From an uncultured Chloroflexus sp. (GTDB lineage: Bacteria; Chloroflexota; Chloroflexia; Chloroflexales; Chloroflexaceae), in assembly GCF_937951745.1 (NCBI RefSeq), contig NZ_CALFBQ010000019.1, positions 1 through 64,000 on the forward strand: a stretch of DNA of 64,000 nt. The letters run 5' to 3'. Positions 21,151 to 26,230 of the stretch are shown in pieces (the stretch's first letter is position 1; each line of letters begins with the position of its first letter). The notes beneath the pieces are model-generated. The model did no database searches. It saw only the letters and a program-made list of their open reading frames with translations, and was not told the origin of the DNA. The position numbers and the translations under genes were made by a program.

Positions 21151-21843
21151 ATGCCGGTTGATCTTTCGCACTGCGCCAGTTGCGGACAACCGTTAACGAA
21201 TGGCTATTATGTCTTGATTGACCGACCTGACCGGTTTTGCCCGCAGTGCATTGCGACCCGGCCCCGTTGCGACACCTGCGGCGCGCCGCTCGGTAATCGC
21301 TTTTGGAATTTGCACGATGGCCGGCGGCAGTGCGACACTTGCTATACGGTTGCGATCTACGATCCGGCGCAGGCGCAGCAACTCTTTCAGCAGACGGCCA
21401 GTATGCTGACCGAAGGGCTAGGCTTACGCCTGAATGTCGGGGTAGCTTTTCGGTTAGTCGATGCCCCCACTATGACTCGGCTGCGCGGCCCGGTGCAGCC
21501 CGGTTTACATACGCTTGGTCTCTATCAGCGCCAGAACCATATTCGCGTCATTTATCTGCTCTATGGGCTGCCAAGGCTGGTATTTCGTATTACCGCTGCT
21601 CACGAATATGCTCATGCGTGGCAAACCGAACATTGTCCGCTCTTACGCAACGAGTTTTTGCGCGAAGGGCATGCCGAATGGGTGGCGTATCGGCATCTGT
21701 TGCAGCTCGGTAGTCAAAAAGCAGCCGCCCGCATGCTCGATGAAAACCATCCGTATCATCAACCGCTGCGCCATCTGTTGGCCCTTGAGGCACAATTAGG
21801 CGTGGCAGGGGTGAATGCGTATTTGACGCGGGTGGATGGGTGA
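21151..21843 (+). CDS. LIM/zinc-ribbon plus DA1-like zinc metallopeptidase
   Basis: A 230-residue soluble protein. The N-terminal 65 residues carry four CxxC pairs (Cys 8/11, 30/33, 40/43, 61/64), a LIM-like double zinc finger. The C-terminal half has HEYAHAW (151-157), an HExxH zinc-peptidase motif, with a downstream Glu in REGHAEW (171-177). A treble-clef/LIM unit in front of HExxHAW is the layout of the DA1 peptidases of plant growth control and their bacterial relatives. That assignment is from motif memory. AAGGTGCGCG before the ATG supports the start. Its target is unknown. Confidence 0.65.
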   Translation: MPVDLSHCASCGQPLTNGYYVLIDRPDRFCPQCIATRPRCDTCGAPLGNRFWNLHDGRRQCDTCYTVAIYDPAQAQQLFQQTASMLTEGLGLRLNVGVAFRLVDAPTMTRLRGPVQPGLHTLGLYQRQNHIRVIYLLYGLPRLVFRITAAHEYAHAWQTEHCPLLRNEFLREGHAEWVAYRHLLQLGSQKAAARMLDENHPYHQPLRHLLALEAQLGVAGVNAYLTRVDG

Positions 21844-22105: not shown

Positions 22106-23224
22106 ATGCACATCTGGTGGCTTGATCCCTTTCACGGCGGTTCACATGCGGCGGTCGCTAGCGGTTACGCCGCGCACAGCGCGCACCACGTGACACTGAT
22201 TACGCTCAGCCAAGCCGGCGGTTGGCGTTGGCGCATGCGGGGTGGAGCGGTGACGCTCGCCCGGCAGGTGGCCGAGCGCCGCGATGCGCCTGATCTGATC
22301 GTGACCACCGATATGCTCGATGTAGCTACTTTTCGGGCCTTGACCCAGCGCCAGGTGGGGCATGTGCCGGTAGTAGTCTATTTTCACGAAAATCAATTGA
22401 CCTACCCACTACCGCCGGGCCGCAAGCGCGACTACACGTTCGGGTGGATCAACTTCACCAGCGCACTGGTCGCCGATGCCGTGATCTTCAATTCTGAGTT
22501 TCACCGCCGCGACTTTTTGACGGCGCTGCCGGCTATGTTGCGGCGCTATCACGATTATCACGAATTGCAGACGGTTGATCAGATTGCAGCCAAAGCGCAG
22601 GTGTTACCACCCGGCCTTGATCTGCCGTCGCTGCTGCCGCGCCCGCCGCGCGATCCCGCCACGCCACCAGTGATCCTGTGGAATGCGCGCTGGGAATACG
22701 ATAAGCAGCCGCAGGTGGTGATGGCGGCGCTGGAATATCTGGCGGCGCAAGGGATCACCTTCCGCCTGATTGTGACCGGTGAGCATATTGACCCCACGAT
22801 GCCTGATTTGGTGGCCGCGCGCGAACGGTGGCAGGCGCAGACGATCCATTGGGGCTATGCCGCCAACCGCGCGGCCTATCTCCAATTGTTGCTACAGGCT
22901 GACATTGTAGTCTCGGCGGCGATCCAAGAGTATTTCGGAGTAGCAATCGTCGAGGCAATTGCCTGCGGCTGCATCCCACTTTTGCCGGCGCGGCTCAACT
23001 ATCCCGATTTGATCCCGCCAGCATGGCAGAACGACTGCTTATACGCTACCGATGACGACTTGCCGGCGGCGCTCGCTCGGCTCATCACTAAGCTGCCGGA
23101 GTTACGACAACGCGATTGGCCGGCGCTAGCCGCGCCGTACCGCTGGGAAACGCTGGCGTCGCGCTATGATGCGGTGTTGAATGAGATCTGGGCTAAACAA
23201 TCTTTTGGCAAGGGGTCGCGTTGA
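22106..23224 (+). CDS. Probable tRNA-queuosine mannosyltransferase-like glycosyltransferase
   Basis: A 372-residue GT-B glycosyltransferase. FHENQLTYP (93-101) near the end of the N-terminal domain, FNSEFHRRDFL, NARWEYDKQP and the nucleotide-sugar region QEYFGVAIVEAIACGCIPLLP match the DUF3524 / GTDC1 group. Its animal member QTMAN mannosylates queuosine in tRNA-Asp. By analogy it may transfer mannose from GDP-mannose to queuosine in the wobble position. No other queuosine gene is in the window. The start lacks a ribosome site and has an AT-rich promoter directly upstream. The fold is sure, the substrate is inferred. Confidence 0.72.
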   Translation: MHIWWLDPFHGGSHAAVASGYAAHSAHHVTLITLSQAGGWRWRMRGGAVTLARQVAERRDAPDLIVTTDMLDVATFRALTQRQVGHVPVVVYFHENQLTYPLPPGRKRDYTFGWINFTSALVADAVIFNSEFHRRDFLTALPAMLRRYHDYHELQTVDQIAAKAQVLPPGLDLPSLLPRPPRDPATPPVILWNARWEYDKQPQVVMAALEYLAAQGITFRLIVTGEHIDPTMPDLVAARERWQAQTIHWGYAANRAAYLQLLLQADIVVSAAIQEYFGVAIVEAIACGCIPLLPARLNYPDLIPPAWQNDCLYATDDDLPAALARLITKLPELRQRDWPALAAPYRWETLASRYDAVLNEIWAKQSFGKGSR

Positions 23225-23998: not shown

Positions 23999-24691
23999 GT
24001 GCCAGACCAAGAACGCCGTTCGACCACCTTGCTCTTAATCCGCCATGGCATGAATGACTGGGTGCATGGTCGGTTAGCCGGTTGGTTGCCGGGGGTGCAT
24101 CTGAGCGAAGAGGGCCGGCGGCAAGCGGCGGCGCTGAGCGAACGGCTGGGCGATTTGCCCATCACAGCTCTGTATACCAGCCCGCTCGACCGTTGTATCG
24201 AGACGGCGCGTGCGATTGCCGAACCGCGCGGGTTACCGTTGCGGATTGTCGAGCAGATCGGTGAGGTACGGTACGGCGAGTGGGAAGGGGCCGAATTGAA
24301 AGAGCTGTACAAGCACGAGCTGTGGCCCGGAGTACAGCACTATCCGAGTGGGACGCGCTTTCCTAAAGGTGAGACGCTCGGTGAAGCACAGATGCGGATG
24401 GTGAGTGCGCTTGATCAATTGCGTGCTCGTCATCAGGGTGAGCTGATTGCCGTTGTGTCGCACGCCGATCTGATCCGGTTGGCGCTGGCGTATTATATTG
24501 GTATGCACATCGATTTATTTCAGCGGCTGGTCATCAATCCGTGCTCGTTGAGCGCCGTCGCCTTCGAGCCGATGGGGCCTCGCCTGCTGGCCTACAATGA
24601 GACCGGGTCGCTTGAACATCTTCGCCCTAAATCACCCACACCGCCGGCCGAACCGGCGGCAACGTCCCCGTCGTCAACGGAGGCAGTGTAG
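23999..24691 (+). CDS. Histidine phosphatase-family probable phosphomutase, MSMEG_4193-like
   Basis: About 230 residues of the phosphoglycerate mutase superfamily: LLLIRHGMNDW holds the phospho-His, LYTSPLDRCIETA the second Arg, and VVSHADLIRLAL the second His. The C-terminal tail is Pro/Ala/Ser-rich. It heads a run with a DUF3090 gene and a PI-kinase-like gene, the same trio known from Actinobacteria, where the mutase role was proposed from context. The start is uncertain: a GTG at 23999 follows ATAGGTG, while a TTG at 23978 is in frame without a ribosome site. Four bases separate the stop from the next ATG. Confidence 0.82.
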   Translation: MPDQERRSTTLLLIRHGMNDWVHGRLAGWLPGVHLSEEGRRQAAALSERLGDLPITALYTSPLDRCIETARAIAEPRGLPLRIVEQIGEVRYGEWEGAELKELYKHELWPGVQHYPSGTRFPKGETLGEAQMRMVSALDQLRARHQGELIAVVSHADLIRLALAYYIGMHIDLFQRLVINPCSLSAVAFEPMGPRLLAYNETGSLEHLRPKSPTPPAEPAATSPSSTEAV

Positions 24692-24695
24692 GATT

Positions 24696-25223
24696 ATGGC
24701 AGAGTTTACGTTTGACTTGGAATCGGTGCATCGCATCACCGCTGGTGCGGTCGGGCCGCGTGGCCGGCGCGTCTTCTACTTGCAGGCCCGGCGTGGCAGT
24801 CGGTTAGTCACTTTGTTGGCCGAGAAAGAGCAGATCCGCGAGTTGGCCAACGCGATCAACCGCTTGCTCGAAACAATCGGCGAACGGAATCCCCGCTTAG
24901 CAACCTCTGACGATCTGATCGTGGCCGATATGAGCCTCGAAGAGCCACTTGAGCCGGAATTCCGCATTTATCAATTGGGCTTGGGCTACGATAGCGAGCG
25001 CGATCGGGTGGTGTTGCTGGCGCAAGGTATGCCAGAAGGCAACGACGAAGAACCGCTCTCGGCCCGTTTTTACGCCACCCGCGAGCAGATGAAGGCGTTG
25101 AGCATTCACGCTGAGCGGGTCGTCGCCGCTGGACGCCCGATCTGCGGTAATTGCGGTCGCCCGATCGATCCGAGCGGTCATTTCTGCCCGCACCGCAACG
25201 GCCATGGGCCGGTGTATAGCTGA
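24696..25223 (+). CDS. DUF3090 (TIGR03847-like) conserved protein of unknown function
   Basis: A 175-residue soluble protein: FTFDLESVHRITAGAVGPRG, FYLQARRGSRLVTLLAEKEQ, EFRIYQLGLGYD, ARFYATREQMKALSIHAERV and, near the C-terminus, CGNCGRPIDPSGHFCPHRNGH, which could bind zinc through Cys/His. This order matches the DUF3090 family as I remember it, always seen with the flanking phosphomutase and kinase-like genes. Its function is unknown. ACGGAGG lies inside the end of the preceding gene, just before the ATG at 24696. I judge longer upstream starts to be false. Confidence 0.8.
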   Translation: MAEFTFDLESVHRITAGAVGPRGRRVFYLQARRGSRLVTLLAEKEQIRELANAINRLLETIGERNPRLATSDDLIVADMSLEEPLEPEFRIYQLGLGYDSERDRVVLLAQGMPEGNDEEPLSARFYATREQMKALSIHAERVVAAGRPICGNCGRPIDPSGHFCPHRNGHGPVYS

Positions 25224-25279
25224 GCCGCTGTTGCGTCTTGGCGTTGAGCGGCCAATCCATCAGACGGCAAGGGGACGGT

Positions 25280-26029
25280 ATGGAGCTTGATCGCAGCCAC
25301 TCGCGTGAATTGAGCGTCGCCCGCGTGTTGACGGCGCTAGCGCAGGGTGAGATGAACATCGAAGCGGCGATGCCGTACAGCAGCAACTACACCTTGCTTA
25401 CCAGCATTGTGTACGAGGACCTGCATCTGTTGGCGGTGTATAAGCCGCAGCGCGGCGAGCGCCCGCTGTGGGATTTTCCGCGTGGCACACTCTACCGGCG
25501 CGAGGCAGCGGCGTATGTGGTCAGCGAGGCGCTCGGCTTTCATTTCGTACCGCCGACTGTGGTACGCGATGGGCCATATGGGGTAGGTATGGTGCAGCTC
25601 TTCATTGACAATGATGAGGAGGTGCATCTGTTTACGATGTTGAAGCAGGGCGGTTACGAGCAGGAGATTAAACAGCTCTGCGCGTTTGATTGTCTGGTTA
25701 ACAATGCTGATCGTAAGAGCGGCCACTGCCTACAAGGACGTGATGGTCGGTTATGGGCAATCGATCACGGTATCTGCTTTCATGTCGAACCCAAGCTGCG
25801 CACGGTGTTATGGGATTTTGTCGGTGAACCGTTGCCTGATGAGGTGATGGCAGCGTTTACCGCCTTTCGCCAGCAGCTCGAGCAGAATGATCAGGTGGCG
25901 CAAGCGCTGCACATGCTGCTCGATCGAGCTGAGGTGCGCGCATTGCGCCGCCGACTGAACAACTTGCTTGAGAGCGGTCGCTATCCGCCGCCCGGTCCCG
26001 GCCCGCACGTGCCTTGGCCGCCAGTGTGA
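25280..26029 (+). CDS. SCO1664-family PI3/4-kinase-like protein
   Basis: A 249-residue protein distantly like phosphatidylinositol kinases and HipA-type kinases. VYKPQRGERPLWDFP (Lys55) is a candidate ATP lysine. AFDCLVNNADRKSGHCL (about 135-151) matches a catalytic-loop DxxxxNxDR/K pattern. WAIDHGICF (Asp162) is a likely metal-binding Asp. The chosen ATG at 25280 follows AAGGGGACGGT; 56 bases separate it from the DUF3090 gene. It is the third member of the conserved trio and ends at a bidirectional hairpin. Phosphotransfer to a small sugar or lipid alcohol is a guess from the mutase next door. Confidence 0.8.
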   Translation: MELDRSHSRELSVARVLTALAQGEMNIEAAMPYSSNYTLLTSIVYEDLHLLAVYKPQRGERPLWDFPRGTLYRREAAAYVVSEALGFHFVPPTVVRDGPYGVGMVQLFIDNDEEVHLFTMLKQGGYEQEIKQLCAFDCLVNNADRKSGHCLQGRDGRLWAIDHGICFHVEPKLRTVLWDFVGEPLPDEVMAAFTAFRQQLEQNDQVAQALHMLLDRAEVRALRRRLNNLLESGRYPPPGPGPHVPWPPV

Positions 26030-26084
26030 TGATTTGGCTCCCCTCCCAATCCCCCCGCTAGGGAAGTGGTGCTGTTTACCGCCG

Positions 26085-26208: not shown

Positions 26209-26230
26209 GGGCCGGACAATCGTCCGGCCC
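26209..26230. terminator. Bidirectional terminator hairpin
   Basis: GGGCCGGAC, loop AATC, GTCCGGCCC: a perfect 9-bp stem between convergent genes ending at 26029 (+) and 26251 (-). There is no long T-run on either side. Confidence 0.6.

Follow-up and report, generated by a model that had tools for sequence, protein, structure and literature searches.

Three adjacent genes of a Chloroflexus-like genome, coding for an annotated 'phosphomutase', a DUF3090 protein and a relative of phosphatidylinositol kinases, raise the question of which common task their products might fulfil. The genes were analyzed within a stretch of 64,000 nucleotides from an uncultured Chloroflexus sp., hereafter called the window.

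Layout of the locus and family membership

The locus comprises the following features, each given with the evidence on which it was assigned.

23999-24691, + strand: histidine phosphatase of the MSMEG_4193 family (annotated 'phosphomutase'), GTG start; TIGR03848, PF00300, catalytic residues
24696-25223, + strand: DUF3090 / TIGR03847 protein, ATG start; TIGR03847, PF11290, AlphaFold2 (AF2) model
25143-25190, + strand: putative CxxC...HxC zinc site of DUF3090 (C150/C153/H162/C164); alignment, weak zinc-ribbon profile matches
25280-26029, + strand: kinase of the SCO1664 family with a predicted PI4K-II/FAM20-like fold, ATG start; TIGR03843, AF2 model, profile search
26209-26230, strand unassigned: inverted repeat with a perfect 9-bp stem, located in the spacer ahead of the convergent gene, without a T-run

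A sequence-only reading of the window had described three same-strand genes belonging to the MSMEG_4193, DUF3090 and SCO1664 families. The open reading frames agreed exactly with its coordinates, the gaps being exactly 4 bases (phosphatase-DUF3090) and 56 bases (DUF3090-kinase), and all three family models that it had named were passed. The phosphatase scored 272.7 bits with TIGR03848 (curated cut-off 203.85) and matched PF00300 at 4e-51. The DUF3090 protein gave 204 bits with TIGR03847 (curated cut-off 117.25) and 163.8 bits with PF11290 (4.5e-48; cut-off 27 bits), and the kinase matched TIGR03843 over its full length with 303.9 bits (curated cut-off 172.4). The function of the trio is unproven, as had also been stated, and few of the papers searched mention any of the family names. 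The window contains a canonical member of a set already catalogued. It shares the curated families and the gene order with the actinobacterial trio (TIGR03848/TIGR03847/TIGR03843) but has no adjoining mshC and resides in a Chloroflexus-like host. The original observation is correct and the family assignment ordinary, while the biological question is sharper now.

Comparison with five congeneric genomes gave dN/dS values of 0.01-0.07 for each of the three genes. In the window organism, a bacterium of the Chloroflexaceae type, they are under strong purifying selection and are old residents. The inverted repeat at 26209-26230, with which the trio had been said to end, does exist, and its perfect 9-bp stem had an expectation of 0 in shuffled sequence. 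However, the repeat lies approximately 180 bases beyond the last stop codon of the trio, immediately ahead of the convergent gene, and lacks a T-run. Folding of the whole intergenic region 3' of the trio was not better than that of shuffles (z -1.12), and a terminator scan disclosed only a weak site (26055-26069). We therefore regard the repeat as a hairpin of the convergent-gene spacer rather than as an established terminator. Two further genes were recorded upstream. The gene at 22106-23224 (+), two genes 5' of the trio, encodes the N-terminal domain of a tRNA-queuosine mannosyltransferase (PF12038 QTMAN_N, E 4e-60), and the one at 21151-21843 (+) a putative bacterial DA1-like peptidase with LIM/zinc-ribbon motifs, a HEYAHAW motif and a weak DA1-like peptidase match.

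Co-occurrence, range and gene order

The kinase was present in 50 of 50 DUF3090-positive versus 0 of 20 DUF3090-negative Actinomycetota genomes (p 6e-18) and in 43 of 49 versus 1 of 13 Chloroflexota genomes (p 1e-7), p-values that ignore shared ancestry and hence overstate independence; the Chloroflexota genomes tested came from dozens of families. Co-occurrence at chance level, upon which the sequence-only reading was to be abandoned, is itself refuted by these counts. The trio is conserved, as that reading had claimed, with kinase and DUF3090 genes adjacent in all 50 actinomycetotal pairs (median of 56 bases between the matches). One Actinomycetota genome contains two SCO1664-family kinases (G282:C17:153588 and 398696). 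In 14 of 39 Chloroflexota genomes both genes have been retained at separate loci, so that linkage by itself does not account for the pattern in this phylum. Six Chloroflexota genomes harbor DUF3090 without the kinase, and a close TIGR03848 match was absent from 23 of the 44 kinase-bearing ones; both counts speak against a common module. The TIGR03848 cut-off was passed in only 14 of 62 Chloroflexota genomes, and the phosphatase is the loosest member of the trio.

The presence in the window had been thought to widen the range of the trio. The range indeed covers much of the Chloroflexota (DUF3090 in 163 of 251 sampled genomes), but the window copy is only one of very many. DUF3090 was also found in 90 of 198 Actinomycetota genomes. 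From the phylum that includes the 'Rokuibacteriota' bins, 44 of 95 genomes contained the kinase family. Thus, the trio occurs in a third phylum as well, the Methylomirabilota ("Rokuibacteria"), and two or three phyla keep its genes together. The kinase tree resolves Chloroflexota and Actinomycetota into largely separate clades and places the window copy inside the Chloroflexaceae/Oscillochloridaceae, from which we conclude that Chloroflexota have long possessed the trio and that the window copy was not imported recently. Rokubacterial copies are nested in Acidimicrobiia-like Actinomycetota, and this position suggests one transfer into Rokubacteria. A substantial part of the Chloroflexota and of the Actinomycetota, the latter including Streptomyces and Mycobacterium, has kept the trio.

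The genes were found together above chance in the order phosphatase-DUF3090-kinase, which recurs on one strand in distant Chloroflexota classes, in Actinomycetota and in Rokubacteria. Across the Chloroflexota loci compared, there were no conserved neighbors beyond the trio, and mshC lies 3' of the trio only in loci of Actinomycetes. A cysteinyl-tRNA ligase located near the pair at three Thermoflexales loci proved to be ordinary CysS (484-486 aa) and not MshC.

Predicted folds and catalytic residues

The AF2 model of the kinase (pLDDT 92.7) matched PI4K-IIbeta with Z 19.3 over 227 residues, followed by FAM20 (Z 16.1) and the HipA-like CtkA (14.7). A profile search independent of the model retrieved FAM20A (E 2e-5) and PI4K2B (E 7e-5), and K55, E75, D144 and D162 were invariant in 113 of 113 homologues. 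With the PI3/PI4 kinase profile PF00454 the window protein remained below the gathering cut-off (25.2 versus 27.1 bits); 30 of 35 homologues gave matches at E<=1. Fold match, profile hits and invariant residues together indicate that the SCO1664-type protein is very probably an active kinase of the atypical PI4K-II/FAM20 group. It resembles PI4K type II and FAM20 kinases in its predicted fold, in the DR and DxG-type catalytic motifs and in the Lys and Glu of the N-lobe. It differs from them by its minimal size (249 aa), by the lack of membrane or secretory elements, by a His replacing the metal-binding Asn past the catalytic Asp (His149 in 112 of 113 homologues), and by DHG in place of DNG. 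The fold does not discriminate between lipid, sugar and protein as the substrate class.

In the phosphatase, RH 15-16, R65, E89 and H155 are conserved among homologues. It shares the catalytic RH, R, E and H residues with branch 1 of the histidine phosphatases (CobC, PspA, Rv2135c), but the MSMEG_4193 family is a subfamily of its own whose gene often adjoins DUF3090. We take Rv2135c to be the M. tuberculosis orthologue of this family. It was described as an acid phosphatase devoid of mutase activity and with weak activity on generic substrates (PMC3866925), the latter being uninformative about the true substrate. Given these properties of the presumed orthologue, the label 'phosphomutase' is probably a misnomer and should better read 'phosphatase'. 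Of the earlier predicted pairing of a kinase with a phosphomutase, to which the sequence-only reading had referred, a kinase/phosphatase pairing is thus retained.

The AF2 model of DUF3090 (pLDDT 90) is predicted to consist of a PUR/Whirly-like core (residues 5-147) followed by a C-terminal zinc-ribbon-like tail. Its best match among solved folds was PURA 8cht (Z 9.7, 112 residues). PUR-repeat proteins as a group gave Z 9.7-9.3 over 109-115 residues, the next rows 6.8, and Whirly proteins 5.3-5.7; Foldseek matches were weak (best E 0.02). A sequence search against solved structures found nothing, and a PUR match was absent from a Pfam search at a loose threshold. From the model we infer a PUR/Whirly-like fold, i.e., a beta-sheet/helix double repeat, which in DUF3090 is accompanied by the additional tail and by neither detected sequence similarity to these proteins nor their conserved nucleic-acid motif. 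E43 and R147 were invariant in 109 of 109 copies, and G20, G23, R25, K44 and Q46 nearly so. The putative CxxC..HxC metal site has been noted previously (PMC9425974). It had also been taken as a hint at a regulator or scaffold; the putative site is present in the window protein but is a weak key to function, since its three cysteines are jointly missing from 13 of the 109 copies while E43 and R147 stay invariant. Judged by this alignment, zinc would not belong to the core function and the tail appears secondary and dispensable.

A candidate phosphorylation module and its alternatives

Deviating arrangements provided further information on the relation of DUF3090 to phosphatases. Phosphatase-DUF3090 fusions were detected at two Chloroflexota loci, one of which (L171) could reflect the loss of a stop codon in a single metagenome assembly. 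Moreover, a DSP/PTP-type phosphatase (CDKN3/PTP-SAK-type; PF22784 9e-11, PF05706 4e-10) lies directly 3' of DUF3090 in five genomes of family f15 (G021, G040, G083, G099, G107) and in G065.

L171:6771-7952: phosphatase-DUF3090 fusion ORF of 393 aa, Candidatus Aquidulcis
L144:6545-7925: phosphatase-DUF3090 fusion and, 3' of it, a further, separate DUF3090, both without the zinc cysteines
L065:7613-8215, L219:6913-7506, L220:6565-7149, L221:3660-4172, L222:6908-7459, L074:3583-4176: DSP/PTP-type phosphatase replacing the histidine phosphatase beside DUF3090

Among the 251 Chloroflexota genomes, six of the seven closest homologues of the swapped phosphatase adjoin DUF3090. The seventh belongs to G008, also of f15, in which DUF3090 was not found. 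The kinase was found neither in G021 nor in G008, the two f15 members tested. The substitution of an unrelated phosphatase for the histidine phosphatase speaks for DUF3090 functioning together with a phosphatase. Fusions and swap may be regarded as natural experiments and serve as pointers for binding searches.

Co-occurrence, fixed order, intact catalytic residues, the fusions and the exchange of the phosphatase are consistent with a module for reversible phosphorylation in which DUF3090 is the adaptor, a reading whose probability we place slightly below even. The small PI4K-II/FAM20-like kinase would add a phosphate to some molecule and the MSMEG_4193-type histidine phosphatase would take it off, while DUF3090, with its predicted PUR/Whirly fold and dispensable zinc tail, would recruit either the common substrate or the partner enzyme to phosphatase and kinase. 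We infer that both enzymes share one substrate and that DUF3090 is an adaptor and not the substrate itself. More tentatively, the trio might represent a phosphorylation system that is ancient and has not been described so far, with DUF3090 as a PUR/Whirly-fold adaptor assisting both a minimal FAM20/PI4K-II-like kinase and a phosphatase that can be exchanged, being of either the histidine or the tyrosine phosphatase type. Through the present analysis, the vague 'uncharacterised trio' becomes a testable proposal comprising an active kinase and phosphatase, a phosphatase-bound DUF3090 and a common purpose other than mycothiol.

DUF3090 could also be what the kinase phosphorylates, or a regulator of this kinase, with the phosphatase resetting it. 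Kinase and DUF3090 form the tightest pair, the fold relatives FAM20 and HipA/CtkA are protein kinases, and many members of the DSP/PTP family, to which the swapped enzyme belongs, are protein phosphatases. However, the alignment of DUF3090 contains no invariant Ser, Thr, Tyr or His, and the fusions fit an adaptor better than a substrate, so that we consider such a protein switch unlikely. It is very improbable that the trio modifies nucleic-acid ends or RNA, DUF3090 binding ssRNA or ssDNA in a PUR-like manner and the two enzymes adding and removing an RNA phosphate. PUR-repeat proteins, followed by Whirly proteins, are the top fold matches and the tail is zinc-ribbon-like, but the match derives from a predicted model and is weak by Foldseek, the tail is dispensable and many homologues possess acidic loops. 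Furthermore, the KxNxR nucleic-acid motif of PUR repeats (PMC4764581) is not among the residues conserved in the DUF3090 alignment, a comparison made at the sequence level and not by superposing the positions in 3D.

An involvement in inositol metabolism, in which the phosphatase would be the one still missing from the synthesis of inositol lipids or mycothiol, and inositol or phosphatidylinositol would be phosphorylated by the kinase, is suggested by Streptomyces, where SCO1664 adjoins mshC and a shared mycothiol/inositol network was proposed (PMC4255298). The mshC genes 3' of the trio in Actinomycetes, PI4K-II as the nearest solved fold of the kinase and the inositol-phosphate synthase present in 58 of 62 Chloroflexota genomes tested point in the same direction. 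But of the 50 Actinomycetota genomes with the trio, only 7 contained an MshC above its cut-off, and in Chloroflexota the kinase was not associated with MshC-like genes (22 of 44 versus 8 of 18, p 0.78), this test covering MshC-like proteins only, all of them below the cut-off. Neither was the kinase associated with Ino1, which is near-universal in Chloroflexota but went undetected in three genomes with the kinase. We therefore hold the inositol explanation to be quite improbable. A mycothiol phosphatase (MshA2) as the general function was rejected, because many trio genomes lack MshC, and an obligate inositol link is unsupported. The SCO1664-mshC link is a matter of local synteny or lineage-specific use.

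In the window's genome (L201:7456-8550; G000 contig C8), a second, short MshC-like cysteine ligase was identified, which scored 393.6 bits, below the TIGR03447 cut-off, and adjoins ftsZ/ftsA and murein genes. An enzyme of this MshC-like type may serve Chloroflexota for a thiol not yet described.
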